Shown one piece after another: positions 12,958-61,313 of a stretch of DNA of 61,313 nucleotides. Source of the DNA: a virus. The notes beneath the pieces are model-generated. The model saw only the letters and a program-made list of their open reading frames with translations. It was not told the origin of the DNA and searched no databases. Where the stretch lies: positions 1-61,313 of IMG/VR virus record IMGVR_UViG_3300024431_000003. One strand, given 5' to 3'. The stretch's first letter is position 1; every line of letters begins with the position of its first letter. The translations under genes and the position numbers were made by a program.

Positions 12958-13329
12958 TCAGCCCTCCTTATCTTGGTCGACGTAGTCAGGTCCCGGCTCG
13001 CCGGACTGATCAAGATCAAGGATAGCATGTAGTCTGTCCGGCATCTGCATCGGTACGGTGTACGTCTCCATCAGTGTCAGCAGTGCGTATGCGATCAGGT
13101 CTTCAAGCGAGTCTCTTCCTTCTTCTAACTCAATGGTCGCCTTGAACAGATCAAACTGGAACTGCTCAGCTCCAGCTTCAACGCGACTATACTTGCGGTC
13201 CAGGTTGAAGAACGCACTGTATCCGCCGTGCGACTTCCAGCTTGAACCGTATGCTTCATCTTTCTTTATGATCGTCTGTACGATCTCGTCGGCTATCTTC
13301 TGTAGCCTTTCCTTCTCATGTGGCTTCAT
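12958..13329 (-). CDS. DUF1599 / nucleotide-modification-associated domain 1-like protein
   Basis: The 123-residue product contains the signature KKDEAYGSSWKSHGGYSAF followed by KYSRVEAG, typical of DUF1599 (Nmad1) proteins, which are found next to phage thymidylate-synthase-like genes. RBS GAGGAGGAAG precedes the ATG, and the start overlaps the thymidylate-synthase-like gene by 14 nt. Known Nmad proteins are predicted, from context, to take part in base modification or nucleotide metabolism; the reaction is not established. It is the last enzyme-like gene of the hypermodification cassette. Confidence 0.75.
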   Translation of the reverse strand: MKPHEKERLQKIADEIVQTIIKKDEAYGSSWKSHGGYSAFFNLDRKYSRVEAGAEQFQFDLFKATIELEEGRDSLEDLIAYALLTLMETYTVPMQMPDRLHAILDLDQSGEPGPDYVDQDKEG

Positions 13330-14323
13330 GGTTCTTCCTCCTCGTCATCCACTGAGTACATGCAAGAGACCAGTCCTGCGACGCGATGTTCTTGCACAGA
13401 TGCAACGCAGATTCCATATCGCCTCTCTTGTAACATCTCCAGGCATCGCGCATTGGATACGCGGTCTTGCTGAAGAATAGATCTTGGTACATAATCGGGT
13501 CATCCCAGTCATCACCGAAGAACCGATTCAGGTCTGTGTCCCAGATGTTCGTGGACTGATTGATGATGGCAGACGATGAGATGCGGCTCGGAGTGTATCC
13601 GTGACCGGCATAGTAATCCTGCTCACCATACGCGGCTCCCATGAACAACTTCTTGATCGTCGGGTTCTCCATGTAGTAGTGCCACGAATCGCTGATGTGA
13701 TAGTACAGTCCCATCTTGCATCCGATCTTCCGTGCCATGTATTCCTGAAGCACACTGAAGTGAACTGCGTTCGCACCGTAGCATCCCCAGATGATATCGT
13801 TGCTCCGACAACAGACTGTCATGTTCAGCTTCCCACCACGGATCTTGAAGTAGATGTGCGTGTTGCATGGGATGTCTCGCTTGTCCGCGTTGAGATCGGC
13901 GACCGGACTCCACATGTCAACCACTGCACGGCGACTGTCAGGGTTCTTGCGAAGTAGATTGGCAACACCAATCAACTGATCGATGCCTCTGCGCCATCGG
14001 TATCCATACGCTCCGTGGAATCTGCCATCATCTTCAGCGAACTGCGTGATGTTCTTACTGAACTGACCAATCCACTGTGCATCATCGCGTCCTTGCAACA
14101 TCCAGAGTGCTTCCATCAAGTGGAAGAATGGATTGGCATCACGCACGTCGCAGAACAGAACACGTCTCCACGGCTTTCGGTACACGGTAATGACTGGCTC
14201 CAGGTACTCGCGCGTCTCCTTGCCTTCGCGCGGAGTTATCTCGCACCAGTTATCATCGTTCAGGATAATCTGCGCTGCCTTCCTGAACGCTTCGTTCACG
14301 TTGTCAACGTCTATTAGCATCAT
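13316..14323 (-). CDS. Thymidylate synthase homologue, probable dUMP (hydroxymethyl) transferase
   Basis: This 335-residue protein has the thymidylate synthase core: DSRRAVVDMW, the catalytic Cys153 in DIPCNTH, CRSNDIIWGCYGANAVHFS and HISDSWHYY. Asn185 falls at or next to the position that reads the pyrimidine in TS, which favours dUMP over dCMP. In phages such homologues make either dTMP or 5-hydroxymethyl-dUMP. The kinase and HMUDK_hel-like neighbours make the hydroxymethylase reading more likely, so hmdU would replace some or all T in DNA. It starts at ATG with AAGGAG and is coupled to the upstream gene by ATGA. Which product it makes is inference. Confidence 0.85.
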   Translation of the reverse strand: MMLIDVDNVNEAFRKAAQIILNDDNWCEITPREGKETREYLEPVITVYRKPWRRVLFCDVRDANPFFHLMEALWMLQGRDDAQWIGQFSKNITQFAEDDGRFHGAYGYRWRRGIDQLIGVANLLRKNPDSRRAVVDMWSPVADLNADKRDIPCNTHIYFKIRGGKLNMTVCCRSNDIIWGCYGANAVHFSVLQEYMARKIGCKMGLYYHISDSWHYYMENPTIKKLFMGAAYGEQDYYAGHGYTPSRISSSAIINQSTNIWDTDLNRFFGDDWDDPIMYQDLFFSKTAYPMRDAWRCYKRGDMESALHLCKNIASQDWSLACTQWMTRRKNHEAT

Positions 14324-15189
14324 GTCGTACTCCTTTTGTATTTGGATCGTGGTCGACCCTCGTTTCTATACACTCGCATCCACTTGTCAAACTCGCACAA
14401 CGAATGCTCTATCTCGCGCATCTCCAGGGGAGGTACATGCTTCCCCCGGTACTTCGGCGACGTCTTCAGCATCTCCTGCATGAACTCGATGTACGGACCG
14501 GCTCCTTTGAACACGTTCTTCTGTGCGTCATTGCCGACGATCCGGTTGATGCCTCGCCTCGCTCCCGGTCCTAGGTTCGCCCACTTCTTTCTGTCGGGAG
14601 CCTTGTCTAGCATCCCGGGCTGATAGCGCATATCGCAGATGACTTCGTACGCTGTGAACATACCTTGCATCGGGTACGCTGATAGGATCTTCGTGCATCC
14701 TTCCATCGTGCCGTCGGCCATCATCTCCTCCCAGATCTTACGACGTCCACGCCACTGAACACCGAGCGCATCGCACACCAGATCTATCTTGGGTTCAGTG
14801 CGACCAGCGTTCGTGATGATGTATGCTCCGGTGAATATCTTCTTCCCCCGGTCTGCGTTCAGGTGCAAGATACGCTTCATCTTCGCGGGTCTGTTGTGCG
14901 TAGTCTTGCCGCGTGTCAGCAGGTCATACGTTGACGCAAGGTTGAACGCGCGGAACATGATCATGCTGTAGAGCTTGTCGGCTGGCATCAGATCCAGTAT
15001 GTCTATCCGCTCGTGGAACCTGATGGTCTCTGCATCTAGCTCACGGAATACGTTCGTGAACTTGTACTCCTGCAAGATCTTATCGTTCGTCCAAGGCCAA
15101 GGACGGTCAGCCTTCTTGTGGACGTAGATCTGGTGTCGCTCGTTGATCCACCAGTAGAACTTCGCGAGCCGTGAAGATGGCGTCTTCAT
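14320..15189 (-). CDS. HMUDK_hel-type helical partner of 5-hmdU DNA kinase
   Basis: The start at 15189 overlaps the kinase stop (ATGA) and has a GGGAG RBS. Diagnostic segments are WWINERHQIYVHKKA, PWPWTNDKILQEYKFTNVFR, ELDAETI, KIFTGAYI and LGPGARRGINRIVG, which I recognise from the helical domain (HMUDK_hel) found with 5-hmdU DNA kinases and base-hypermodification loci. The family is predicted to act on phosphorylated 5-hmdU in DNA, possibly as a glycosylase-like DNA-binding module. Here it is a separate 289-residue protein beside a separate kinase. The family match is strong by eye; the exact step is not known from sequence. Confidence 0.8.
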   Translation of the reverse strand: MKTPSSRLAKFYWWINERHQIYVHKKADRPWPWTNDKILQEYKFTNVFRELDAETIRFHERIDILDLMPADKLYSMIMFRAFNLASTYDLLTRGKTTHNRPAKMKRILHLNADRGKKIFTGAYIITNAGRTEPKIDLVCDALGVQWRGRRKIWEEMMADGTMEGCTKILSAYPMQGMFTAYEVICDMRYQPGMLDKAPDRKKWANLGPGARRGINRIVGNDAQKNVFKGAGPYIEFMQEMLKTSPKYRGKHVPPLEMREIEHSLCEFDKWMRVYRNEGRPRSKYKRSTT

Positions 15190-15734
15190 ATCCTGTTCTC
15201 CCATAGGAGCTCAATGATTTCCTTAGTCGGCTGGTCCATGTTCAGCACGACGGGATTCGCCTTGTCGTACACTGCTCGCTGGAGATATCGCATGTTCGCC
15301 CAGAAGAGCTTCTCCGTGTTCTCCGTGTTGAACGGCTTCGTATTTCCTGCTGCCTTCCTACGCTTGCGAACCCTGGAGATGCACGTTCGCAGTGGAGTAT
15401 CCAGGAATGCGAAGGCGAACGGCTGCTTCGTGCGGCGATGATGCACTAGGTTCTTCGCGTATCCGTTGCTGATGGTCAGTCCCTCATATATAACGTGACC
15501 GAGCTTGCAATACTTACCGATGCGACGGCGGATCTCATCTTGTGTTTTGATGGTGTCACATCCACCGCAGACGTTGTCGTACCGTCCGATGACATAGATG
15601 GGCTGAGCCCAATGGATTACAACGGCGACGACCTTCCCTTTCACAACGACGTCTCCATGGTCAAACTTCTCCATGAGCTCCCTGATGATGGTGGTCTTTC
15701 CGGCTCCACTCGTTCCGCGTATGTTTATGATCAT
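15186..15734 (-). CDS. P-loop kinase, putative 5-hydroxymethyl-dU DNA kinase
   Basis: The 182-residue protein begins with a beta-strand and the Walker A loop GTSGAGKTT (residues 7-15). It continues with the family segment IYVIGRYDNVCGGCDTIKTQDE, in which the paired Cys and the GGCDTI motif are characteristic of phage 5-hmdU-DNA-kinase-like proteins, then FLDTPLRTCISRVRKRR as a lid-like basic helix. These enzymes phosphorylate 5-hmdU in DNA, creating a leaving group for further substitution. It overlaps both neighbours by ATGA, so all three are one translational unit. A generic nucleotide kinase is the main alternative. Confidence 0.82.
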   Translation of the reverse strand: MIINIRGTSGAGKTTIIRELMEKFDHGDVVVKGKVVAVVIHWAQPIYVIGRYDNVCGGCDTIKTQDEIRRRIGKYCKLGHVIYEGLTISNGYAKNLVHHRRTKQPFAFAFLDTPLRTCISRVRKRRKAAGNTKPFNTENTEKLFWANMRYLQRAVYDKANPVVLNMDQPTKEIIELLWENRI

Positions 15735-16396
15735 ACTCGTTTCACTCCTTCTTTTAAGTCACTGATAGTTCCCTTGTATCCACTCCGATGGAGCGGTCTT
15801 GTTGCCACGAAGACAGGCTTCTGGAACAGGTGTACGTTATCAAAAATGAACGTGACAGGTCTGCGTCCCTTCGCCTCGTAGTCAATATCCTTATTCCACT
15901 TCGGCACTCCCCACTTCTTATCTATCTCCATACGAACATGACCGTGAGGGATGAAATAGTTCTTCGGATTGTACTTGGTCTTGTCCGTCAGCTTCCGCTT
16001 CGGCATGTAGATGTCGCCGAGGTTATTCTGTGGCGCTATCTTCTGGATCCATGCGTCACGATGATGCTCGTTCATGTACTGCCCGAGATCATAGTTGCTG
16101 TCAAAGACGTTGCTGATGCGAGCGAGGAACAGTAAGTAGCTGTCGCCGCATCCTACCTTCGGCGTGAATCCTGCGATGTACGTGTAGATCCAGTCGACGT
16201 TCGCTGTCCTCATGTAGTGCTTGCATGTTGACAGGGTAAGAACTCCGCCTTGCCAGTTGGGACCGGAGCGCGTCTGTTTGAAGATGCCGTCCTCCAGGTA
16301 GATTTGATGCTGCGGAAAGGTGCGGACGATGTCATCGTCATGCGCTTGGATGGTTCTCTTCTGACCCCATCCTTTGAACGATTGGTAATCTCTCAT
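15731..16396 (-). CDS. Nmad2-like nucleotide-modification-associated protein
   Basis: The start at 16396 has RBS GGAGGAAG; a longer frame upstream runs into the terminator hairpin and is rejected. The 221-residue protein has a core TLSTCKHYMRTANVDWIY, then GDSYLLFLARISNVF, NNLGDIYMP and HGHVRM. This order matches, from memory, Nmad2-type domains (TLATCK, GDWV, NIY). It also has a long N-terminal extension rich in aromatic residues. It is the first gene of the cassette, directly after a terminator. A role in tailoring the modified base or handling nucleotides is suggested by context only. Confidence 0.6.
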   Translation of the reverse strand: MRDYQSFKGWGQKRTIQAHDDDIVRTFPQHQIYLEDGIFKQTRSGPNWQGGVLTLSTCKHYMRTANVDWIYTYIAGFTPKVGCGDSYLLFLARISNVFDSNYDLGQYMNEHHRDAWIQKIAPQNNLGDIYMPKRKLTDKTKYNPKNYFIPHGHVRMEIDKKWGVPKWNKDIDYEAKGRRPVTFIFDNVHLFQKPVFVATRPLHRSGYKGTISDLKEGVKRV

Positions 16397-16464: not shown

Positions 16465-16764
16465 TCAGAGATTGTAACGTCCGGCCTCATCCATGGACTT
16501 CGCCTTCAGCGAGCCAAAGAGTTTCCGGACAGACTTCTTGCTGATGCCAACAGAGTCAACGACCTCCATCACTGACGCGCCACTGCGCCGCTTCAACATC
16601 TTGGTCACCTTACCTTCGTGGACCGCAATGCTATTCGCGCGACCGTTGCCGTTCTTCTTCTTCGACGCCGCTTTCTTCGCAGTACGAGTGGCCTTCTTAC
16701 CGACCTTCTTGTTCACTGCTCTCTTACTTGACGCCTTCTTCTTACTTGCTTTCTTGGTAGCCAT
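16465..16764 (-). CDS. Possible in-frame internal gene: H1-like HTH protein, 99 aa
   Basis: Inside the preceding gene, AAGGAGGAAG lies 8 nt ahead of an in-frame ATG at 16764. The product begins MATKKASKKKASSK, and its start region ATGGCTACCAAGAAAGC is identical to that of the separate gene at 22115. It would yield the Lys/Ala tail plus HTH alone. The RBS bases also encode Arg-Arg-Lys in the long frame, so chance cannot be ruled out. Confidence 0.5.
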   Translation of the reverse strand: MATKKASKKKASSKRAVNKKVGKKATRTAKKAASKKKNGNGRANSIAVHEGKVTKMLKRRSGASVMEVVDSVGISKKSVRKLFGSLKAKSMDEAGRYNL

Positions 16765-17247
16765 CTTGGACTTCCTCCTTCGCTTGGGTTTCAGCCGGAC
16801 TTTCCCCGGCCACATCTTCCACTTTGAATCGTAACGCAGGAGAGCCGCTTGTGACGTATCTTCTGTGTCAGTGAATAGTGCGTGGAATATACACTTCACA
16901 GTTCCGAGCAATGAAGCGTGTTCACGATGCTTCGGCTGCTCTCCTGTGATTTCTTCAATGAAAGTACTCAGGTGACTGTAGCTCCAGCTTGCGACCTCCG
17001 CATACATATTGATGCTGAAGTCCGCGCATGGATCATCCATGAACAAGTTTATCGCTGGAGCTTTGTGACCCTGAACTTTGATGAAGTCATAGAACAACTC
17101 CATCGCTCTCTTGTCACCTATCCCCGGCCTGAACTTGATCCCACGATGGAGACACTGTTCCTGCGTCGGTACTCTCTTCTTGCGCTTCTTGCGCTTCACC
17201 TTCTCCTTAGTCGGTGTCGTCATCATCTTGTTTAACTTCTTCGTCAT
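16465..17247 (-). CDS. Fusion-like protein: unknown N-terminal domain plus H1-like linker and HTH
   Basis: The ATG overlaps the helicase stop (ATGA) and is preceded by GAGGAGG. Residues 1-160 form an unrecognised domain with a basic start; residues 161-210 are a Lys/Ala histone-H1-like linker (KKASKKKASSKRA); residues 211-260 form an HTH-like unit ending SISKKSVRKLFGSL-type. The HTH part resembles the small protein at 29213-29413. An internal ATG with a strong RBS at 16764 may give a separate short product. DNA binding is likely from the tail and HTH; the first domain's role is unknown. Confidence 0.7.
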   Translation of the reverse strand: MTKKLNKMMTTPTKEKVKRKKRKKRVPTQEQCLHRGIKFRPGIGDKRAMELFYDFIKVQGHKAPAINLFMDDPCADFSINMYAEVASWSYSHLSTFIEEITGEQPKHREHASLLGTVKCIFHALFTDTEDTSQAALLRYDSKWKMWPGKVRLKPKRRRKSKMATKKASKKKASSKRAVNKKVGKKATRTAKKAASKKKNGNGRANSIAVHEGKVTKMLKRRSGASVMEVVDSVGISKKSVRKLFGSLKAKSMDEAGRYNL

Positions 17248-18945: not shown

Positions 18946-19643
18946 GGTCCAGGCCTCCCGTTCTCAAGCTTCTTATCGCTGCGCATAGGACAGCCTCCAT
19001 ACTTTTGACAGGCTGCTCCAGGGTTCGACGGCCACTTGCGATCGCTCAGCATAGCCTTCGCTCGCTTCACCCATCGGTCCCAGAGTTCGCGGCTATCTTT
19101 TGGAGTGTAGTCCTGTCCTTCTATCTCACCGTGATCGCTGAACCATAACTCAACACGAATGCTCTTCGCTTCAGGGTAGTAGAACTGACTCATCGCCGCG
19201 TACAGATCCATCTGTGCCTGAGCTATGTTCACACGTCCTGTCTTCAGGTCAACGATCAGCAGTTCTTCATCGTCCTCAAAGTAATGGTGAGCATCAAGCT
19301 TCGCTCGCAGCCACGCTCCCTTCCAATCTCTTGGGTGAGTGTGTTGTAGATCTTCAGTCAGCGTCCAGTCCATCTCTGGATTGCCGCCGAGCTTCGCTAA
19401 GTTATTGATCTCCTTCTTCAACCCTGCAAGATCGTCAGGCATTCCTGTGACGTTCCCCTTCAGCTTCTCCTCAAACAATTTGTGAATGCGTATGCCACGA
19501 TCCATCGCTCTGTTCTTTGGCGCACGATACTTCAGTATGCTTTCGAGCAGATACTGATACGCGCACCCTCTCCACTTGTTATACCTGGAGATGGACCAGA
19601 AGTTTGGAATCCTCGTACCCTTTGGAATTCTTACTCTCTTCAT
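18909..19643 (-). CDS. PD-(D/E)XK exonuclease, RecB/Cas4-like
   Basis: The start at 19643 overlaps the polymerase stop (ATGA). The 244-residue protein shows GIRIHKLFEEKL (His54), AWLRAKLDAHH (Asp117), LIVDLKTGR (Asp132, Lys134) and QAQMDLYA, the RecB-nuclease motifs. Four Cys, one at residue 27 and three near the C-terminus, fit the Fe-S cluster layout of Cas4/AddB enzymes. It probably resects or recycles DNA for recombination-linked replication. There are no CRISPR genes nearby, so a stand-alone phage Cas4-like role is meant. Confidence 0.85.
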   Translation of the reverse strand: MKRVRIPKGTRIPNFWSISRYNKWRGCAYQYLLESILKYRAPKNRAMDRGIRIHKLFEEKLKGNVTGMPDDLAGLKKEINNLAKLGGNPEMDWTLTEDLQHTHPRDWKGAWLRAKLDAHHYFEDDEELLIVDLKTGRVNIAQAQMDLYAAMSQFYYPEAKSIRVELWFSDHGEIEGQDYTPKDSRELWDRWVKRAKAMLSDRKWPSNPGAACQKYGGCPMRSDKKLENGRPGPCHEWKKAKTSG

Positions 19644-21508
19644 CGGATGTCCCTGTGTTTTTTCATTCTTGCCCAAGATCGTACACCGATCTCACCATCG
19701 GATAGCATTGGCAACTTGAACTTCACGTCTTCCATCGCCTCCCTCATCCGATCCATTTCTGCCAGCGCATGTTCCTTCGGCACACTGCAAACGAGTTCGT
19801 CGTGTACCTGTAGCACGATGCGTCCGTGCTGCATGTTCTCCCAGACGTTGATCATACCTTGCTTCGTGCAGTCAGCGGCACTGCCTTGAATTTTCGTGTT
19901 GAGCATCTTGTATTCAAACGTTCGCTTCTCCCTCCCTCCGTCGGCCGTCTCAACGTAGATGGGTTCTTCGCAGTAGTACTCGCGTCCTCCCCATGTATAA
20001 AACGGTTCGCCGTTCTTTGCCAGAGCGCGCAGTTCACGCATCACCTTTGAGATCCCCGGGACCGCGCGGAGTACTGCCTTCTTCAGCGTTCGCGCTGCCG
20101 TCTTCTCTAGCTCCAGGCGAGCGGCGAGCTTCGCGATCCCCATCCCGTAGATGATGCCGAAGTTCGTTTGCTTGATGTGCTTCCGTGGGAAGTTCATGCC
20201 TGTATCCTGCGCCACTAAGAACCTCACAGCATCGTGCGCATCCATCGTCGGATCCTCGTGGTACATGGCAAGGAACGCTCCCTCTTCAAAGTGCGCGAGG
20301 ATGCGAAGCTCCTGCTGATTGTAATCGCGTCTCAGGAAGACGTGTCCTTCATCCGGCTCAAAGTAATCACGGAGCCCAATGAAGTTCACTCCCTGCTTCT
20401 TCAGCAAGACCTGGAGCTTCTGCAAGATCTTCCAGTGCGGTGAACCGTCAACTGACGAAGGCACGTTTTGAAAGTTCGGGTCACTACTACTGAGCCGACC
20501 AGTCCGCGCTCCTTTGCCTTTGCCTCCACCGTACTCGTCCGACGACCGGACAGTGTTGAACGATGGCTGAATGTACCTGTCATTGATCTCACCGATGTCC
20601 AGCCAGTTCTGCAGGAACGTGCCGATGTACGTTTGACAGGTGCCGTAGATCGCAAGCATCTCAAGCAACTTGGGATCGGTGCAGTTCGCTTCCAGCACTG
20701 CTCGAGCGGTACTCACCTTCCCTGTCTTAGTCTTAACGATGTGGCTCAGCAAGTCGTTCTTGATCAGTGCGTCTGCGAGCTGAGGTCCGCTGCTCGGGTT
20801 GAACTTCATGCCGAGTCGGCGCTGAATGGATCGCTCCATATTGTTCTTCACCTTTATATACGCACCGATCTCACGCTTGAGCTTCGGCAGTCGTACTCGG
20901 ATACCATGCTGCTCCATGTGAAGCTTGATGGGGATCAGCTTCATCTCTCGCTCGTACGCTTCAGGCATGTATCTGATCACTTCCTTTTCCCATAGCTTGA
21001 ACAGACCCATCGTGCGATGAACGTCTCCCTTCGCATACGGACTGACGATAGAGCCGGGAGCCTTGCAGATGTACTCTCCCCATCGTGTCTTCCGCCGCTT
21101 CGCTTCGGGTACGTTCTCAAGGATCCAGTTCTTCAGCATGTTCTGTTCTTCCGGCGGCTCACCGAGCCACTCTTCAGCCTGAGGCTTGAGTGATAGCGTC
21201 AATGCTCGTGGTTCATTTAGAAACGCAAGACGAAGCGTATCATGATAAGGCTTGTTGACTTCAATGCCGTCTTGCGCCATGACCTCCAGGTCGAAGTCAG
21301 CGTTGTGAAACACTGGCGTATGATCTCGTATTACTTTCTTCACCTCTCTAACTGCTTGTGCTTTCGTGCAGTTGTTTCCTGATGGATGACCGAACGCTAG
21401 ATACTTCTTCGTTCGGCCGTACTTGATCGCATACCCGACGGCTCGTGGTGGATACTCCGGCCGCGAACGTATCGGGTGCGTCTCTGCGTCAATCGCTGCT
21501 AGGCTCAT
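19640..21508 (-). CDS. DNA polymerase I-type (family A) with 3'-5' exonuclease
   Basis: The 622-residue protein has exo motifs AIDAETHP (Asp7, Glu9), HNADFD and YAKGD, and polymerase motifs A (RRDYNQQELR, near residue 395), B (KQTNFGIIYG, near 447) and C (QVHDELV, near 569). It lacks the 5'-3' exonuclease domain, as is usual in phages. The residue equivalent to E. coli Phe762 is Phe, the state often linked to virulent phages. It is the replicative polymerase. GGAGGG precedes the ATG, which overlaps the upstream stop (ATGA). Confidence 0.95.
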   Translation of the reverse strand: MSLAAIDAETHPIRSRPEYPPRAVGYAIKYGRTKKYLAFGHPSGNNCTKAQAVREVKKVIRDHTPVFHNADFDLEVMAQDGIEVNKPYHDTLRLAFLNEPRALTLSLKPQAEEWLGEPPEEQNMLKNWILENVPEAKRRKTRWGEYICKAPGSIVSPYAKGDVHRTMGLFKLWEKEVIRYMPEAYEREMKLIPIKLHMEQHGIRVRLPKLKREIGAYIKVKNNMERSIQRRLGMKFNPSSGPQLADALIKNDLLSHIVKTKTGKVSTARAVLEANCTDPKLLEMLAIYGTCQTYIGTFLQNWLDIGEINDRYIQPSFNTVRSSDEYGGGKGKGARTGRLSSSDPNFQNVPSSVDGSPHWKILQKLQVLLKKQGVNFIGLRDYFEPDEGHVFLRRDYNQQELRILAHFEEGAFLAMYHEDPTMDAHDAVRFLVAQDTGMNFPRKHIKQTNFGIIYGMGIAKLAARLELEKTAARTLKKAVLRAVPGISKVMRELRALAKNGEPFYTWGGREYYCEEPIYVETADGGREKRTFEYKMLNTKIQGSAADCTKQGMINVWENMQHGRIVLQVHDELVCSVPKEHALAEMDRMREAMEDVKFKLPMLSDGEIGVRSWARMKKHRDIR

Positions 21509-21818: not shown

Positions 21819-22115
21819 CTACCGACCGAACTTACGGAACTGACGGTCACAAGTTTCCGCCATCTGACGGACTCCTGATGCCTGTCGTTTGCGTTCCTTA
21901 CCGGAGTCGGCGATTGCCTTCCCCATGTACCCAGACGCGATCATCGTGCGCATGAAGCGTTCGATGCGTTCTTGGTTCGGCTCATACGGAGGCAACTTCT
22001 TCCGCGCACTACGAGTCCTCTCGCGCTTCTTGCCATCCTTGTTCTTCACCGCTGTCTTCTTGCTTGACGCCTTCTTACTTGCGGTCTTCTTCTTTCCTGC
22101 TTTCTTGGTAGCCAT
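21819..22115 (-). CDS. H1-like basic protein, 98 aa
   Basis: The N-terminal 40 residues are Lys/Ala/Ser-rich (MATKKAGKKKTASKKASS), like bacterial histone-H1 tails. The remainder contains a conserved-looking NQERIERFMRTMIASGYMGKAI segment. Its start region matches that of the internal start at 16764. AAAGGAG precedes the ATG. It follows the ssDNA-binding gene and probably binds nucleic acid; no enzymatic motif is seen. Confidence 0.7.
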   Translation of the reverse strand: MATKKAGKKKTASKKASSKKTAVKNKDGKKRERTRSARKKLPPYEPNQERIERFMRTMIASGYMGKAIADSGKERKRQASGVRQMAETCDRQFRKFGR

Positions 22116-22128
22116 CTTTCGTTCTCCT

Positions 22129-22944
22129 TTAACTTACACGTGAACGGCGACGCGTCTTCTTCGCTGCCTTCTTTGAAGTCTTCTTCTTAGACTTCTTCTT
22201 CTTGGCTCGCTTGCCGTTCCCCTTCTCATACCCTGACACATCGTAGGGTTCCATGAGTACTTCTCTTGCTTCCTTTCGCTTGCCGAACGGTCCGGCCAGA
22301 AGCTTCTCAGGTACTTCCTCCAGGAAGGAGAAGATCAGCTTCTGGTAATCCGCATGCTCGTCCATCTCCAGGCGCGTGATGACAGCGTAGCATGGAAGCT
22401 CTGCTGCCTTCGTCAACCCTTTGATGTACTTATTGAACGCGGCTCCGGACGTCACGGGTACTTCTATGAAGAACAGATCGCCATCCAAGTCGTCGACGTG
22501 CATACATGCAAGACGGTTCTTGTCACTGCATGCTTTCCCGCGACCGCGACCACTCGCCCACTCATTCGCCCAACAATCAGCGCAGACTTCCGCTTGCTGA
22601 TCAGGAGCGTCAGGGTGAGGAGCGATGTTGTTCGCGTTCGGCTTCAATGCGAAACACGCTGGCGGAACCGGATTGTCTTCGTCGTAGTCTTGGTCAAAGT
22701 ACAACTTCGCCACGACATGATCAACAATCACTACGTCAATAGATTCCCCAAGATCTGCACCTTGGAAGCTGAACTGACCGTTCCTTTTCAGCGTCACTCT
22801 GTTTCCGCTGCCGACTGGTGTCCGCTCGCTTTCCTCCGCCGCGTCTTCCTTCAACTGGTCGCGCCAGTTTGCAGGTAGAGTTGACTTCCGGATCGCGACG
22901 GTCTTGCCCGTCTTCTTCTTGCTTGTCTTCTTTTTTCTAGCCAC
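22129..22944 (-). CDS. Putative single-stranded-DNA-binding protein with Lys-rich ends
   Basis: The start is GTG at 22944 with AGGAGGAAG. The 271-residue protein has basic tails at both ends (KKKTSKKKTGK; KSKKKTSKKAAKKTRRRS) around a folded centre. In the middle are CFALKPNA, then paired Cys (EVCADC) and RGRGKACSDKNRLACM, a layout I associate with ssDNA-binding proteins of phage replication modules. Its place beside PolA and the 129-residue partner supports this. The call is by family resemblance and context. Confidence 0.65.
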   Translation of the reverse strand: MARKKKTSKKKTGKTVAIRKSTLPANWRDQLKEDAAEESERTPVGSGNRVTLKRNGQFSFQGADLGESIDVVIVDHVVAKLYFDQDYDEDNPVPPACFALKPNANNIAPHPDAPDQQAEVCADCWANEWASGRGRGKACSDKNRLACMHVDDLDGDLFFIEVPVTSGAAFNKYIKGLTKAAELPCYAVITRLEMDEHADYQKLIFSFLEEVPEKLLAGPFGKRKEAREVLMEPYDVSGYEKGNGKRAKKKKSKKKTSKKAAKKTRRRSRVS

Positions 22945-29212: not shown

Positions 29213-29413
29213 CTACGAAACGTAGTAGCCTTGATAATCTCCAGGCTTCGCCTTCAGCTCACGCAGCAGTATGCGAACAGACTTCTTGCAGATGTCAAGT
29301 GCATCCACTGCTTCAAAGACAGACACACCATCTTTGCGTTTCAGAAGTTTGCGCAGTGCTGGGATGTTACTGCTGATTGCGTTCTCTCTCGTTGTCGTTG
29401 TTGTCTTACTCAT
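29213..29413 (-). CDS. Small HTH protein, 66 aa
   Basis: AAGGAG precedes the ATG. Residues 20-60 (LRKLLKRKDGVSVFEAVDAL then CKKSVRILLRELKAK) form an HTH-like unit that closely resembles the C-terminal domain of the 16465-17247 protein (VTKMLKRRSG, SKKSVRKLFGSLKAK). It is a likely DNA-binding regulator; targets unknown. Confidence 0.6.
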   Translation of the reverse strand: MSKTTTTTRENAISSNIPALRKLLKRKDGVSVFEAVDALDICKKSVRILLRELKAKPGDYQGYYVS

Positions 29414-30685: not shown

Positions 30686-30779
30686 GCCCGTTCTCCTTGC
30701 TACAGTGTATGGATGCTCCGCTCACTACATAGACCGTCGTGCATTGTGGCACGATGTCGCCGTTCGTATTCCTAACCAT
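30558..30779 (-). CDS. Small CX..GHxGxH protein, 73 aa
   Basis: CAGGAGAACGCA precedes the ATG, which overlaps the sulfotransferase-like gene. The N-terminal 40 residues contain IHCSKENGHDGGH, a Cys/His pattern common in small phage proteins; the rest is Gly/Asp-rich and lies over the next gene. Whether the whole overlapping tail is used is uncertain. Confidence 0.55.
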   Translation of the reverse strand: MVRNTNGDIVPQCTTVYVVSGASIHCSKENGHDGGHTDVRGSWNEATERAEADPVPAGEGGGRDGSVGDGDSS

Positions 30780-31383
30780 TGCGTTCTCCTGTCGTTGTTG
30801 GTGCTGCGTTCCATAACCTTATGTCTTCCGCATAGAACTCGTTCAGTTCATCTAGTCGGTACGTCACCGTCGGCTTCTCTTCTATCGTCTTATTACTATG
30901 TGGAAGCGTGAGTCCATGGATCTTACCGATACCCTCCAGGCGGATCCAGATAGGGTTCTTCACTTTACTATACAGTTCACTCTGAGGCTGCCATGCGAAC
31001 GCATGAGCGCTGTTCCCTATCTTCGCGTTGAACCACTCTTCCCCATCGTCATCAAGCACTGCGTCAATCGTCTCTTCAAACGGTGGACGTCCAATCGTTT
31101 TGAAGTTCGTTACCGGGTCGCGTGAGTTGATGCCTTCAGCGAGCAGGATGTACGCCGAAGCGATGCGCTTGATGGGGTCACGGATGATGCAGACTGCCGT
31201 GTCCGGCGCTTCCGTCAACTCAACAGCAGATACTCCAAGCTTCTTCACAAGGAAGTAGAGAGACGTACTCCCTGACCTCGGCGCTGCTCCAATGTTGAAC
31301 TCGCCCTGACTGATGTGATAATACTGTGGGATGTAGAACCCTTTGATACATGGTGGTCCCTTCGTTCGTTTGCCGTCTGTCAT
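30772..31383 (-). CDS. Sulfotransferase-family protein, 203 aa
   Basis: The ATG at 31383 has GGAGG at 9 nt and overlaps the upstream stop (ATGA). It has the PAPS-binding 5'-phosphosulfate loop APRSGSTSLYFL (residues 34-45) and the 3'-phosphate motif IIRDPIKRIASAYI (66-79), the two signatures of sulfotransferases. It would transfer sulfate from PAPS to an unknown acceptor, for example a surface polysaccharide, a small molecule or a modified base. It is shorter than many family members but has both motifs. Substrate is not predictable. Confidence 0.75.
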   Translation of the reverse strand: MTDGKRTKGPPCIKGFYIPQYYHISQGEFNIGAAPRSGSTSLYFLVKKLGVSAVELTEAPDTAVCIIRDPIKRIASAYILLAEGINSRDPVTNFKTIGRPPFEETIDAVLDDDGEEWFNAKIGNSAHAFAWQPQSELYSKVKNPIWIRLEGIGKIHGLTLPHSNKTIEEKPTVTYRLDELNEFYAEDIRLWNAAPTTTGERNG

Positions 31384-31517
31384 TGTTCCCATCCTCCGCT
31401 GCCACGATCTTCCAATTCCTCAATCCTCCAGGTCAGTTGCTTGATGCTGGCAGTGTTGACCATGATGGTCACCAACGAACCGAGTACGAACAGCGATTGG
31501 AATAGTTCCCACCACAT
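31380..31517 (-). CDS. Small membrane-anchored protein, 45 aa
   Basis: A short gene starts at 31517 after AAAGGAGACATGAT and ends coupled to the sulfotransferase-like gene (ATGA). One hydrophobic segment (LFQSLFVLGSLVTIMV) is followed by a charged helix (LTWRIEELEDRG). It looks like a single-span membrane peptide; function unknown. Confidence 0.55.
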   Translation of the reverse strand: MWWELFQSLFVLGSLVTIMVNTASIKQLTWRIEELEDRGSGGWEQ

Positions 31518-31980: not shown

Positions 31981-32126
31981 GGTGCTTCCTCTTCGTTCAG
32001 GTTATCTAACATCTCATTGAGCTTCCTTATCTCTGCTTCCGCTTCTTCAAGTAGACCAATGAGGTCTCGGTACATGGACACGGCATTCGTAGGGAGATAC
32101 TCTGGCCTCCATAGATGTCTGTCCAT
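31977..32126 (-). CDS. Small helical protein, 49 aa
   Basis: The ATG overlaps the cupin-like gene stop (TGATG) with GGGGGA upstream, and its stop overlaps the next ATG (ATGA). The product (MDRHLWRPEYLPTNAVSMYR then LEEAEAEIRKLNEML) has a short coiled coil. Coupling on both sides supports it; function unknown. Confidence 0.6.
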   Translation of the reverse strand: MDRHLWRPEYLPTNAVSMYRDLIGLLEEAEAEIRKLNEMLDNLNEEEAP

Positions 32127-32758
32127 CACGTCAGCCGGTCCCCCGGCACCACGTCTCTATCGTACGTCGCCCATTTCCGGTGAGGAATGAACGCATTATC
32201 TTTCGGCCAGAATCCCCAGTCCCTCTTCAGTGGTCCGGTCAGGATGATGGTCCGGAATGTATTCGCCGGCTTCAATACGAAGTGTCGGTGTGTCGCTCGC
32301 CGAAAGTGCGGCAGGAACGCGCGGACCTTGCGTATCCGTCTCCTCCAGTACGTCGGGTGATCTCCAGGTCGGCGCTGACGCCAGTCGTACCACGGAAACG
32401 GGCTCGGTATCTGTTCCTCCACCGTTTCATAGTACGTGGTGAACGGTATCGTGATGAACCACCACGGATGGTCATGCACTGCGCTGTCGTCGTCACCCTG
32501 ATAGAACGTGTGAAGCCTGATGTGGAACCACTTGAACCAGAACATCCGTCGGTCCAGGTAGAGACGGTAATACGTGTTCCCCGCTATCGTGTGCTTCACC
32601 ATGTACTCAGGGCTCGGTCGCTCCTGCATGTACTCGTTCCCCGATACCGGGAACCAGACCTGATCGTGCAAGAAGCCTATCTTCCTCTTGTACGTTCCCT
32701 TCGGCCAGTCACTGACGGTTTCAACGTGGCTCCTACTCTTCTCTGATAATAGTGCCAT
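32126..32758 (-). CDS. Cupin-like (RmlC-type) protein, 210 aa
   Basis: GGAGAGG precedes the ATG at 32758. The core YLDRRMFWFKWFHIRLHTF followed by HDHPWWFITIPF is the pattern of a phage/bacterial cupin-like family, in which the HDHP motif is a metal or ligand site. Later His residues (RRATHRHFVLKP) complete a barrel. Such proteins bind sugars, metals or act as epimerase-like enzymes. Here it neighbours the sulfotransferase-like and HAD genes; a shared small-molecule or glycan task is a guess. Confidence 0.65.
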   Translation of the reverse strand: MALLSEKSRSHVETVSDWPKGTYKRKIGFLHDQVWFPVSGNEYMQERPSPEYMVKHTIAGNTYYRLYLDRRMFWFKWFHIRLHTFYQGDDDSAVHDHPWWFITIPFTTYYETVEEQIPSPFPWYDWRQRRPGDHPTYWRRRIRKVRAFLPHFRRATHRHFVLKPANTFRTIILTGPLKRDWGFWPKDNAFIPHRKWATYDRDVVPGDRLT

Positions 32759-33434
32759 CACGCCTCTCCAGTTCGTTCAGTTGTATCAGGTACTCTACCA
32801 TCCCCGTCACGTCCTTCGCGTTGATAAATGGTGTGACGTACCCGCTCCACTCATGTAAGTACACGTGAGACTTCACTACGATGCCATCGTTGTCGGCTAC
32901 CTCCACGTCGTATCCCTCGCGCTCATGGTTCTGCATGAACGTGATCTGGCAGTTGAGCCACTCATACTTCACAGAGCCTCGCTTGTCAGCCAGTCGCGCG
33001 TCTTCCTTCAGTGCTGCTGTGACGTGTTCCTCTTCATCGGCGTCATCAATGCCGTTCATTATCTCGTTGACGAATCCCGCTGTCCAGGGACGGAAGCATC
33101 GCATCTCTATGATGCTCGGGAACGTGCCGTTGAAGCAGATGCATCGGTCGTCAATGGTCAGCCACGCTGGAGGCTTCTGCGTCGGGAAGCCTATGACGTC
33201 CCAGTATTCAAAGGTATGATCACGCAGCCACGCTCGCATCGCATCAACGCCTCCGGGTTCCTTGCTCCGGCTGCTGTATATCACCGGATCGAAGTCCTCC
33301 ATCTCGTAGAGCAATCCCAGCCAATCTATCGCTCCCTTCACTGGTGGATCCGGGATGATGTCCGCTCCCTTCCATCCGCTGATGTAAGAGTGTATCACTC
33401 CGTCAAAGTCTATACAGATTATCTTCTTAGTCAT
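32733..33434 (-). CDS. HAD-superfamily hydrolase with C-terminal extension, 233 aa
   Basis: The nucleophile motif IICIDFDGVIHSY (Asp9, Asp11), VIYSSRSKEPGG and LTIDDRCICF near residue 95 are typical of small phage HAD phosphatases. The last 90 residues form a separate beta-rich extension not usual in the family. RBS GAGGAAG. It may dephosphorylate nucleotides or sugars; substrate unknown. It overlaps the cupin-like gene by 26 nt. Confidence 0.8.
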   Translation of the reverse strand: MTKKIICIDFDGVIHSYISGWKGADIIPDPPVKGAIDWLGLLYEMEDFDPVIYSSRSKEPGGVDAMRAWLRDHTFEYWDVIGFPTQKPPAWLTIDDRCICFNGTFPSIIEMRCFRPWTAGFVNEIMNGIDDADEEEHVTAALKEDARLADKRGSVKYEWLNCQITFMQNHEREGYDVEVADNDGIVVKSHVYLHEWSGYVTPFINAKDVTGMVEYLIQLNELERRDGTIIREE

Positions 33435-36599: not shown

Positions 36600-36700
36600 C
36601 GGTACTTCCTCCTCGTTGTCGCACAGTGAGCTTCGGCTCACGTCGAGTTCCCGCTGGACAGTGGTCTGCTCTCCCCTTCATTCAACTGGGAACTCAATGC

Positions 36701-37387
36701 GTGACACGCAAGAAGACATCGAAGAAGGCAGCGAAGAAGCGCAAGTCGGCGCCGAGCGCCGGTCGGAACACTTCGCGCGCGAGGCAGAAGAAGAAGGTCG
36801 TCAAGAAGGCGAGGACGAAGGCAACGAAAGCGGAGAGGAGAGCGTCACGACCACAGAACAGAAAGCCTCAGACGAACGGCTCAGCTCACGGCGAGATCGT
36901 GGACCTGTTCCCATGCGAAACGAACATCACGGACATGACCCCGAAGCAACTGCACGAGCTGAAGATGGCGTTCTGCCGGACCTACGCTACGAGAGGCATC
37001 ATCCGAGACGCTTGCATAGCGAGCGGCATCTCCAGGCAGACGTACTATCGGTGGAGGAAGAAGGACGAATCCTTTCACGATGCTTGCGTGATGGCAGAGG
37101 AGATGTCTGCCGACCTTATAGAAGGCGAGGCGATGCGGAGAGCGGTGGATGGCTACGACAAGCCGGTCATCTATCAGGGGGAGATCACCGACACGTACAC
37201 GGAGTACAGCGACAGCCTCATGTCCATGCTCTTACGAGGGAACAAGAAAGAGAAGTACAAGGAGCGCACCGAACACAGTGGAGCAATCGGCAGACCTATG
37301 ACCTTGGACACCGAGACGAAGGAGGACGTCGTGGCAAGCATACTGAGCATGATCAAGAACAAGCCGGACCCGGAGGTGACGAGATGA
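36701..37387 (+). CDS. terS: Terminase small subunit with H1-like N-terminal tail
   Basis: I chose the GTG at 36701 (product 228 residues), as no in-frame ATG lies near the start of the basic tail. Residues 1-70 are Lys/Ala/Arg-rich (TRKKTSKKAAKKRKSA). Then comes a HTH (IIRDACIASGISRQTYYRW), EGEAMRRAVDG and YSDSLMSMLLRG, the standard pattern of HTH-type small terminases that recognise the packaging site. TerL follows after five small genes. The tail is unusual and may bind DNA non-specifically. Confidence 0.75.
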   Translation: MTRKKTSKKAAKKRKSAPSAGRNTSRARQKKKVVKKARTKATKAERRASRPQNRKPQTNGSAHGEIVDLFPCETNITDMTPKQLHELKMAFCRTYATRGIIRDACIASGISRQTYYRWRKKDESFHDACVMAEEMSADLIEGEAMRRAVDGYDKPVIYQGEITDTYTEYSDSLMSMLLRGNKKEKYKERTEHSGAIGRPMTLDTETKEDVVASILSMIKNKPDPEVTR

Positions 37388-40357: not shown

Positions 40358-40697
40358 ACAACTGATCTGTCCTGATTGCGGTGACGAGCATGAAGGTGAT
40401 GTAGAGATGGGAGAGATTGAGTTCTGCGAACTGCATGACGGCGAGATACGGATGGCTCTCATTCAGCGTGGCTTCGGGGAGGACCTGGAGCTTGATAAGG
40501 AAGAGCGAAGGGATCGGTTCCTTGATGGTCATCCTGACGCGCTCGTAGCTATCAAGAACCGTCTGGTCATGGGATGCCTCCAGACGTTCGGCGGCGACAT
40601 GATACTCTCGAACAATGGATGCCCGGTCTGCGTGTTTCATAGTGTGATTGAACAGGCTGCGGACGGGGTCGCAGTGGAACGGACGAGGAAGAACTGA
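40347..40697 (+). CDS. Zinc-ribbon-like protein, 116 aa
   Basis: GGGAGGGAA precedes the ATG. Two CxxC pairs are present: LICPDCGDEH at the N-terminus and NNGCPVCVFH near residue 90, with a helical middle. It overlaps TerL by 11 nt and the next gene by 1 nt. Probably a zinc-stabilised small protein; role unknown. Confidence 0.65.
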   Translation: MTVEQLICPDCGDEHEGDVEMGEIEFCELHDGEIRMALIQRGFGEDLELDKEERRDRFLDGHPDALVAIKNRLVMGCLQTFGGDMILSNNGCPVCVFHSVIEQAADGVAVERTRKN

Positions 40698-41320
40698 TGG
40701 CTAAACTCGCCGGCCTCAAACGGTTCATCCCGCTCCCTCCGAAGCATGAGGAGCTGAAGCGACTGAGGAAGCTCCAGGAGAAGTACATCACGAGCCTGGA
40801 CAAGGATCAGCTCGGAGCTCTGGAGAGCCATCTCATTGGACCATACGAGAGCATGGAGTTCGGATACACGGGAGGATACGGCACAGAGGAACTCGCACAG
40901 AGAATGGATGCCATCATCTCCGGAGCTCCACGAATGAAAGACCCGATGACGGTGTACCGTGGTTCATCCCGGAGGAGAATGATACCGGAGAACGAGTACC
41001 CGCTCACAACGACCATTGATCCCACTCACGCGGAAACGTATGCCGAAGGATGGGCAGGAGACCGAGGTCTGTTCAATGAGATTGAAGTACCTGCGGATGC
41101 TCCGGCTCTGGCGATACCTGATGAGAAAACGCTTCGCAGACTGACTGGAGAATTGCCTCCGTTCGGTGACGAGATGGAGATCCTGCTACCGAAGAGTGAT
41201 CTTGATCTATTGAAGAAGTACGAACATGGAGAAGCGTGGCCGATGGAGCCTGAACGATTCATAGAATATGAGAAGGTCCGATACAAATCACCATACAAGG
41301 CAGAAGGAGGTCTGGTGTAA
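40697..41320 (+). CDS. Putative ADP-ribosyltransferase (R-S-E class), 207 aa
   Basis: The motif order fits ART toxins and phage ARTs: TVYRG (Arg88), YPLTTTIDPTHAETYA (Thr104-106 at the STS position) and FGDEMEILLP (Glu159-x-Glu161). The spacing of about 55 residues between the last two is normal. The C-terminus ends KAEGGLV, the xGGxV tag seen in virion proteins, so it may be packaged. It lies between TerL and the portal and is coupled by TGATG/TAATG. If active it would modify host proteins early in infection; activity is inferred. Confidence 0.65.
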   Translation: MAKLAGLKRFIPLPPKHEELKRLRKLQEKYITSLDKDQLGALESHLIGPYESMEFGYTGGYGTEELAQRMDAIISGAPRMKDPMTVYRGSSRRRMIPENEYPLTTTIDPTHAETYAEGWAGDRGLFNEIEVPADAPALAIPDEKTLRRLTGELPPFGDEMEILLPKSDLDLLKKYEHGEAWPMEPERFIEYEKVRYKSPYKAEGGLV

Positions 41321-60944: not shown

Positions 60945-61313
60945 ATGCCTGAACTTCCAATCAAAATAAGATCGATGCCCGGTATCAAGCGGGACGGGAC
61001 AGTTCTTGAAGGTGAGAACTACATTGACGGTCAGTGGTGTCGGTTTCAGCGTGGACGTCCGCGGAAGATAGGTGGATACCAGTCTATCAGCAGCACTGTT
61101 CCAGAACTTGCGCGAGGCATGACAAGCTTCAGCGCGAACGGTCAGCGATACCTTCATATCGGTGGTAAGAGTCAGATCAACCAGTACATCATCAGCAGCA
61201 ATGGAACACTCGCTGGTCAGAATGACAGAACTCCGGCTGGATTCACATCAGAGCTAGATCATCTGTGGCAGTTTGATCACTTCTTTGATGCACTCGCTGT
61301 CGTAACAGATGAC
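60945..61313 (+). CDS. Tail nozzle/hub-like structural protein, 5' part
   Basis: The ATG at 60945 follows the fibre stop by 2 nt. The start MPELPIKIRSMPGIKRDGT and NYIDGQWCRFQRGRPRKIGG are the opening segments of a podovirus hub/nozzle family. The frame runs off the right end and resumes at base 3 of the window, giving 517 residues in all. The last two window bases differ by one from the left copy, which changes a Val codon and may be a contig-end error. Confidence 0.75.
   Translation, partial: MPELPIKIRSMPGIKRDGTVLEGENYIDGQWCRFQRGRPRKIGGYQSISSTVPELARGMTSFSANGQRYLHIGGKSQINQYIISSNGTLAGQNDRTPAGFTSELDHLWQFDHFFDALAVVTDD
61186..61311. repeat. Terminal direct repeat, right copy
   Basis: This is identical to bases 1-126. 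Together with the in-frame gene across the junction it shows that the contig closes on itself at about 61,185 bp. Confidence 0.95.

Follow-up and report, generated by a model that had tools for sequence, protein, structure and literature searches.

Which DNA base does a phage end with when it has the kinase of the thymidine-hypermodification pathway and no detectable copy of the transferase that usually acts next? The question is raised by IMGVR_UViG_3300024431_000003, an uncultivated phage record of 61,313 bp, which was analysed over its full length and is called the window below. From position 16396 to 12958 it carries a cassette of five overlapping minus-strand genes, encoding an Nmad2-like protein (NM2), a 5-hydroxymethyldeoxyuridine (5-hmdU) DNA kinase (KIN), an HMUDK_hel protein (HEL), a thymidylate synthase homologue (TS) and a small DUF1599-like protein (Table 1). 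To our knowledge, the known kinase-type thymidine hypermodifications all end in amino-acid- or amine-derived bases. We conclude with moderate confidence that the cassette represents a reduced form of the phage thymidine-hypermodification pathway, in which 5-hmdU would be made and then phosphorylated in DNA, with 5-phosphomethyldeoxyuridine (5-PmdU) or an adduct made by NM2 as the end point. If this is true, a phage with the kinase kept and the transferase lost would point to a DNA base of a new kind, which may be a stable phosphorylated one.

A kinase cassette without ADDT

The transferase ADDT (PF18724, aGPT-Pplase2) was absent by Pfam profile from the whole window and from a second complete relative, G001, in a search that found it in four reference phages. 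An expanded ADDT hidden Markov model (HMM), used with filters off, gave a best E-value of 3.9 in the window and no match in G001, and when 92 open reading frames (ORFs) of the window were compared with an ADDT alignment by hhalign, the highest probability was 2.3 %, whereas a divergent true ADDT reached 94.5 %. An earlier sequence-only reading had seen neither an amino-acid transferase nor a radical-SAM gene in the cassette. The first absence is now extended to both genomes, and the second is borne out for the window, where profiles for radical-SAM (rSAM) and pyridoxal phosphate (PLP) finishing enzymes, based on SN1 and Pam3, had no match in six-frame ORFs of at least 50 aa (FAD oxidase and acetyltransferase genes were not searched for genome-wide).

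The first 126 bases of the window are found again at 61186-61311 and one gene spans the junction, which marks the genome as complete or almost complete. G001 (IMGVR_UViG_3300009136_000004, 63.8 kb) is essentially complete, since its two ends share a 1.6-kb overlap of 91.7 % identity. All five cassette genes recur there in unchanged order, with identities of 69-80 %, and the Nei-Gojobori dN/dS between the two genomes is about 0.11-0.20 for each of them, NM2 included; the cassette is thus not a product of chance.

ADDT accompanies the kinase in SN1 (M6-like), Pam3, Sonora, P26218 and PaMx11, and in 34 of 37 kinase-type IMG/VR records, 33 of them by PF18724 and the 34th (L171) by the expanded HMM. 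The IMG/VR contigs L134, L135 and L141 (records up to 46.7 kb) resemble the window in having KIN-HEL-TS with no ADDT detected, and differ from it in having no NM2 and in forming a separate lineage. They rule out that an ADDT-less kinase cassette is unique to the window and G001. Common loss of ADDT among kinase loci is also ruled out: a small ADDT profile misses divergent ADDTs, and PF18724 together with the expanded HMM recovers nearly all of them. A kinase without ADDT is rare and occurs in at least two lineages. L134, L135 and L141 are in themselves another candidate source of a phosphorylated DNA base.

Known systems share parts of this layout. The M6/YuA-type locus (Sphaerotilus phage SN1, Pseudomonas phage M6) likewise has separate, adjoining KIN and HEL genes with a TS/hydroxymethylase gene nearby (HEL 32 % and TS about 40 % identical to those of the window), but it carries ADDT, rSAM, a PLP enzyme and Nmad5, where the window has NM2 and the DUF1599-like gene instead. 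The PaMx11/Abidjanvirus locus has the same KIN-HEL-TS order and a kinase of 35 % identity, and differs in having the ADDT gp46, an FAD oxidoreductase and an acetyltransferase; gp46 is an ADDT by Pfam and has been solved as a 5-PmdU glycinyltransferase. The minimal locus of Rhodoferax phage P26218 is a similarly compact cassette with kinase and TS near PolA, but it contains ADDT and no HEL, whereas the window phage has HEL and no ADDT. HTVC023P-type pelagiphages have, like the window, a TS and aG/PT-PPlase1 (HEL) pair near PolA, and the accessible part of the report on them mentions no kinase for pelagiphages (PMC9599517). The pathway type is already known, as is, from that same part, the pairing of TS with aGPT-PPlase1 in pelagiphages (PMC9599517). 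The full ADDT-less kinase-type cassette, the swap of partner genes and the survey of HEL partners described below were not found in the literature that we reached, outside which lie the main pathway papers, and these may state some of them.

The sequence-only reading had described a leftward set of overlapping genes with ATGA couplings, and this arrangement holds for all five genes, with ATGA overlaps at NM2/KIN, KIN/HEL and HEL/TS; the fourth junction, between TS and the last gene, is instead an overlap of 14 nt. Its five family labels stood for KIN, HEL and TS, which pass Pfam, and not for Nmad2 and DUF1599, which fall below the thresholds of their own families. The motifs that it listed, GTSGAGKTT, GGCDTI and LGPGARRGINRIVG, are present and conserved.

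Table 1 Cassette genes and neighbouring features of the window
Feature	Coordinates	Strand	Match or remark
NM2, Nmad2-like protein, 221 aa	15731..16396	-	Remote similarity to true Nmad2
KIN, 5-hmdU DNA kinase, 182 aa, P-loop GTSGAGKTT	15186..15734	-	PF18748
HEL, HMUDK_hel / aGPT-Pplase1, 289 aa, all-helical	14320..15189	-	PF18723 5.2e-51
TS homologue, predicted dUMP 5-hydroxymethylase, 335 aa	13316..14323	-	PF00303 1.6e-22; phrog_5131 8e-100
DUF1599-like small protein, 123 aa	12958..13329	-	phrog_1485 2.4e-8
P6, Lys-rich protein directly upstream of the cassette	16465..17247	-	Kept in all three sister genomes
Family A DNA polymerase	19640..21508	-	PF00476 1.1e-61

Among solved structures (PDB), the best relative of TS is the CMP hydroxymethylase MilA (1.7e-21, compared to 3.7e-15 for the best thymidylate synthase). 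In an alignment with E. coli ThyA and SPO1 gp29, which is annotated as a dUMP hydroxymethylase, TS is like gp29 in having PCN in place of PCH, in the replacement of the segment with ThyA Trp80/Trp83 and in a GxYGAN insertion; the canonical ThyA marks, the PCH motif and Trp80/Trp83, are missing. The catalytic Cys153 is kept together with Asn185, the asparagine typical of dUMP users, and the alignment predicts 5-hydroxymethyl-dUMP as the product. KIN matches PF18748 (HMUDK_HMUD1) with an E-value of 2.7e-11 and 43.8 bits against a cut-off of 27, and its motifs align with those of the M6-like, PaMx11, Pam3 and Sonora kinases, the P-loop, G.D and EG motifs being invariant. The earlier proposal of 5-hmdU formation followed by phosphorylation is well supported by the hydroxymethylase-type TS, the above-threshold kinase and HMUDK_hel. 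The 'DUF1599' label did not hold at family level: no PF07659 match was found at E<=10 in the window or in five related records, and a resemblance in motifs and the phrog_1485 match are what it is based on.

From these assignments we infer every catalytic step in the window phage, the role of HEL and the final base. TS would convert dUMP to 5-hydroxymethyl-dUMP, and host or phage kinases together with the family A polymerase, which is predicted to incorporate hmdUTP, would build 5-hmdU into the DNA, where it would replace part or all of the thymine (T). HEL, with its predicted helical, DNA-glycosylase-like fold, would present the hmdU base to KIN, which would phosphorylate it in DNA to 5-PmdU. 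The pathway would then end with 5-PmdU, or with an adduct that the co-inherited NM2 makes from it, and not with a base derived from glycine. In vitro, a 5-HMUDK enzyme uses ATP to phosphorylate 5hmU within DNA (PMC6457204). Phosphorylation may be partial, as the M6 kinase reportedly acts on TG dinucleotides and the resistant sites of such phage DNAs show a preference for TG or TC (PMC6449724).

Two further observations concern the kinase family. RefSeq labels the 5-hmdU DNA kinase as 'terminase small subunit' (NC_007809, NC_015296, NC_028770 and others), and PHROG 800 does likewise; the true small terminase of the window lies at 36626-37387 (phrog_4044, 4.9e-32). A kinase-HEL fusion in ViI was ruled out, the ViI kinase being a separate 220-aa gene, and only a weak PHROG 800 match was left.

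HEL, NM2 and the exchange of partner genes

HEL probably starts at 15189, as in its orthologues, rather than at the longer ATG at 15204. Its AlphaFold2 model (47 sequences) has a pLDDT of 94.3 and is all helical. By Foldseek, the best PDB matches of the model are the 5-PmdU glycinyltransferase structures 8z2n and 8z2m (probability 1.0 and 0.98, TM about 0.45, E 0.08-0.2), with the 8-oxoguanine DNA glycosylase Tm1821 next (probability 0.69). Kinship between HEL and ADDT was not significant by sequence (hhalign probability 7.6 %, E 0.0046; one HEL matches the ADDT profile with E 0.015), and fold comparison is the only analysis that supports it.

A profile search of IMG/VR found at least 563 HEL loci; from these the 80 with the greatest similarity were taken, so that with the window 81 loci were compared; the sample is skewed to relatives of the window, and the fractions are not population frequencies. 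TS lies within 5 kb of HEL in 71 of these loci and the DUF1599-like gene in 61. Next to HEL, the commonest genes encode a TAGT glycosyltransferase (PF20691), a different glycosyltransferase (in many cases together with radical SAM) or an S-adenosylmethionine (SAM) methyltransferase, and a kinase is near HEL in only nine loci. Well-supported branches of the HEL tree force at least seven changes of the kinase label. Neighbourhoods and tree together rule out a purely kinase-specific domain: HMUDK_hel is not specifically a kinase part, and most relatives have a glycosyltransferase or methyltransferase beside it. Because of its predicted fold, the helix-hairpin-helix-like LGPGARRGINRIVG, which is conserved, and its exchangeable partners, we infer that HEL recognises hmdU in DNA and presents it to whichever interchangeable enzyme is present. 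The comparative pattern thus gives a testable role to a widespread family that was named after a kinase and yet stands mostly beside glycosyltransferases and methyltransferases in the sample examined, namely one common hmdU-presenting module with exchangeable catalytic partners, and listing the neighbours of HEL could be a way to mine metagenomes for new DNA bases.

Such an exchange is seen between close relatives. On the HEL tree, G002 (L014; 63 kb, with a 107-bp end match), the window and G001 group together with full support, and G002 is 95 % identical to the window in the major capsid protein, 82 % in the terminase, 71 % in HEL and 74 % in TS. It has neither KIN nor NM2, and instead a TAGT glycosyltransferase (PF20691) is located between HEL and TS. 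The window and G001 have 77 ORFs in common on the coding strands; G002 lacks 14 of these, most of them small, and the cassette genes among the 14 are exactly KIN and NM2. As judged from this one swap in three genomes, NM2 thus goes with the kinase module, and HEL, TS and the DUF1599-like gene make up the constant core.

NM2 itself, whose start is the ATG at 16396 preceded by the ribosome site GGAGGAA, was found only in the window and G001. It has no Pfam, PHROG or NCBIfam match, and none to PF18753 even at E<=10, in a search that recovered three true members. Against true Nmad2 proteins, collected by a motif pattern and then verified with PF18753, hhalign gave a remote match (probability 62 %, E 7.6e-5, 43 columns), and the motifs TL[AST]TCK and GD.IY are common to both. 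The description 'Nmad2-like' is accordingly kept in the sense of remote similarity and not of family membership. NM2 is a possible finishing enzyme or an accessory protein.

Partners of other kinds were also noted. In the HEL-TS cassettes of L038, L040, L043, L047, L050, L057, L070, L073, L082, L084-L086 and L091 a SAM methyltransferase (Methyltransf_23) is the sole partner adjoining HEL; these cassettes form one clade on the HEL tree and could make a methylated hydroxymethyluracil. Small sulfotransferase-like genes lie between HEL and TS in L016, L017 and L080 (the L017 copy matches Pfam Sulfotransfer_3 with E 8e-4, below the cut-off), a hint that other phages may have sulfated modifications of their DNA bases.

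The finished base

As ADDT, the usual next enzyme, is truly absent, the end product is most likely 5-PmdU or an adduct made by NM2, and the final base is probably one not yet described, since the enzyme attaching the amino acid is missing from the whole genome. Several points weigh against this conclusion. The modified base of this uncultivated phage is a prediction from its genes, and the numerous small genes without annotation could include a finishing enzyme of an as yet undescribed family. Transcription in vitro from a phosphorylated hmU template was only 37 % of normal (PMC6457204), which argues against a densely phosphorylated genome. The likeness of the HEL fold to the glycinyltransferase is marginal, at E 0.08 and TM 0.46, and distant, with E-values above 0.001, and is suggestive only; NM2 has no assigned fold, its AlphaFold2 model (five sequences) being unusable at a pLDDT of 32. 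A wider proposal is offered as a tentative one: mature DNA would carry 5-PmdU as its final base, with a negative charge, or else an adduct for which NM2, a finishing enzyme of a new class, is responsible, and HMUDK_hel would be a general base-presenting subunit for kinases, glycosyltransferases and methyltransferases alike.

The phage might instead make a conventional amino-acid-derived thymidine, if an unrecognisably divergent transferase, or NM2 replacing ADDT, attached glycine or another amine to 5-PmdU. NM2 does occupy the slot 5' of the kinase that ADDT holds in P26218, Pam3, Sonora, SN1 and most IMG/VR kinase loci, it is gained or lost together with KIN, and divergence is a real risk, the small ADDT profile having missed divergent ADDTs. 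We nevertheless regard this outcome as rather unlikely, given that three search methods found no ADDT-like protein in the window, that no relation between NM2 and ADDT was detectable by hhalign and that no rSAM or PLP finishing genes were detected in the window. It is improbable, too, that 5-PmdU is no more than a reactive intermediate, which cellular amines or water would displace with no dedicated enzyme, or which would be reduced to T, to give mixed bases as discussed for phiW-14; in that phage, according to the accessible part of one account, hypermodification affects only about half of the thymines (PMC5977210). The unrelated lineage of L134, L135 and L141, which keeps KIN-HEL-TS with neither ADDT nor NM2, indicates that a phage can keep the kinase in the absence of any known transferase; however, almost all kinase phages keep ADDT, implying that enzymatic transfer matters, and the association with NM2 would be left unexplained.

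The absence of any DNA modification, with TS acting as an ordinary thymidylate synthase and KIN as a dNMP kinase for nucleotide supply, seems very improbable to us. PF00303 and generic P-loop kinase families do match as well, and the models that NCBIfam offers for TS are 'thymidylate synthase' models only, all of which score below cut-off, but TS has the signature residues of SPO1 gp29 and not those of ThyA, KIN passes the 5-hmdU kinase cut-off, and the HEL family is known from hypermodified phages. A pathway running through 5-hmdU to 5-PmdU or an NM2 adduct is the account that we prefer.

Neighbouring genes and minor observations

A 206-aa ORF at 30772-31392 (-) has the sulfotransferase-like motifs GAAPRSGSTSLYFL and CIIRDPIKRIASAY and no Pfam or PHROG match. 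It is 68 % identical in G001 and absent from G002, thus tracking with the kinase module, and is a second candidate finishing enzyme. Homology to the ST24 genes inside other cassettes was not supported (hhalign probability 5.4 %).

P6 has no Pfam family match above cut-off and is possibly in the same transcription unit as the cassette. Early proteins encoded at 16465-17247, 21819-22115, 22129-22944 and 29213-29413 (-) have long Lys/Ala-rich tails or a shared C-terminal domain, the latter being common to the proteins at 16465-17247 and 29213-29413. In phage Sonora, a DUF3489-like protein is encoded directly upstream of ADDT. The family A DNA polymerase gene adjoins the HEL-TS core in most relatives on the neighbourhood map.

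In the virion gene block, a 207-aa protein (40697-41320, +) weakly resembles the ADP-ribosyltransferase family PF03496, at E 0.0095 and below the cut-off; its ORF is present in G001 and was not found in G002. The adjacent ORFs 32126-32761 and 32733-33434 (-) match phrog_4786 ('cysteine dioxygenase', 7e-22) and phrog_23773/phrog_1238 (5e-28 and 5e-13), respectively; both are kept in G001, and the first also in G002.

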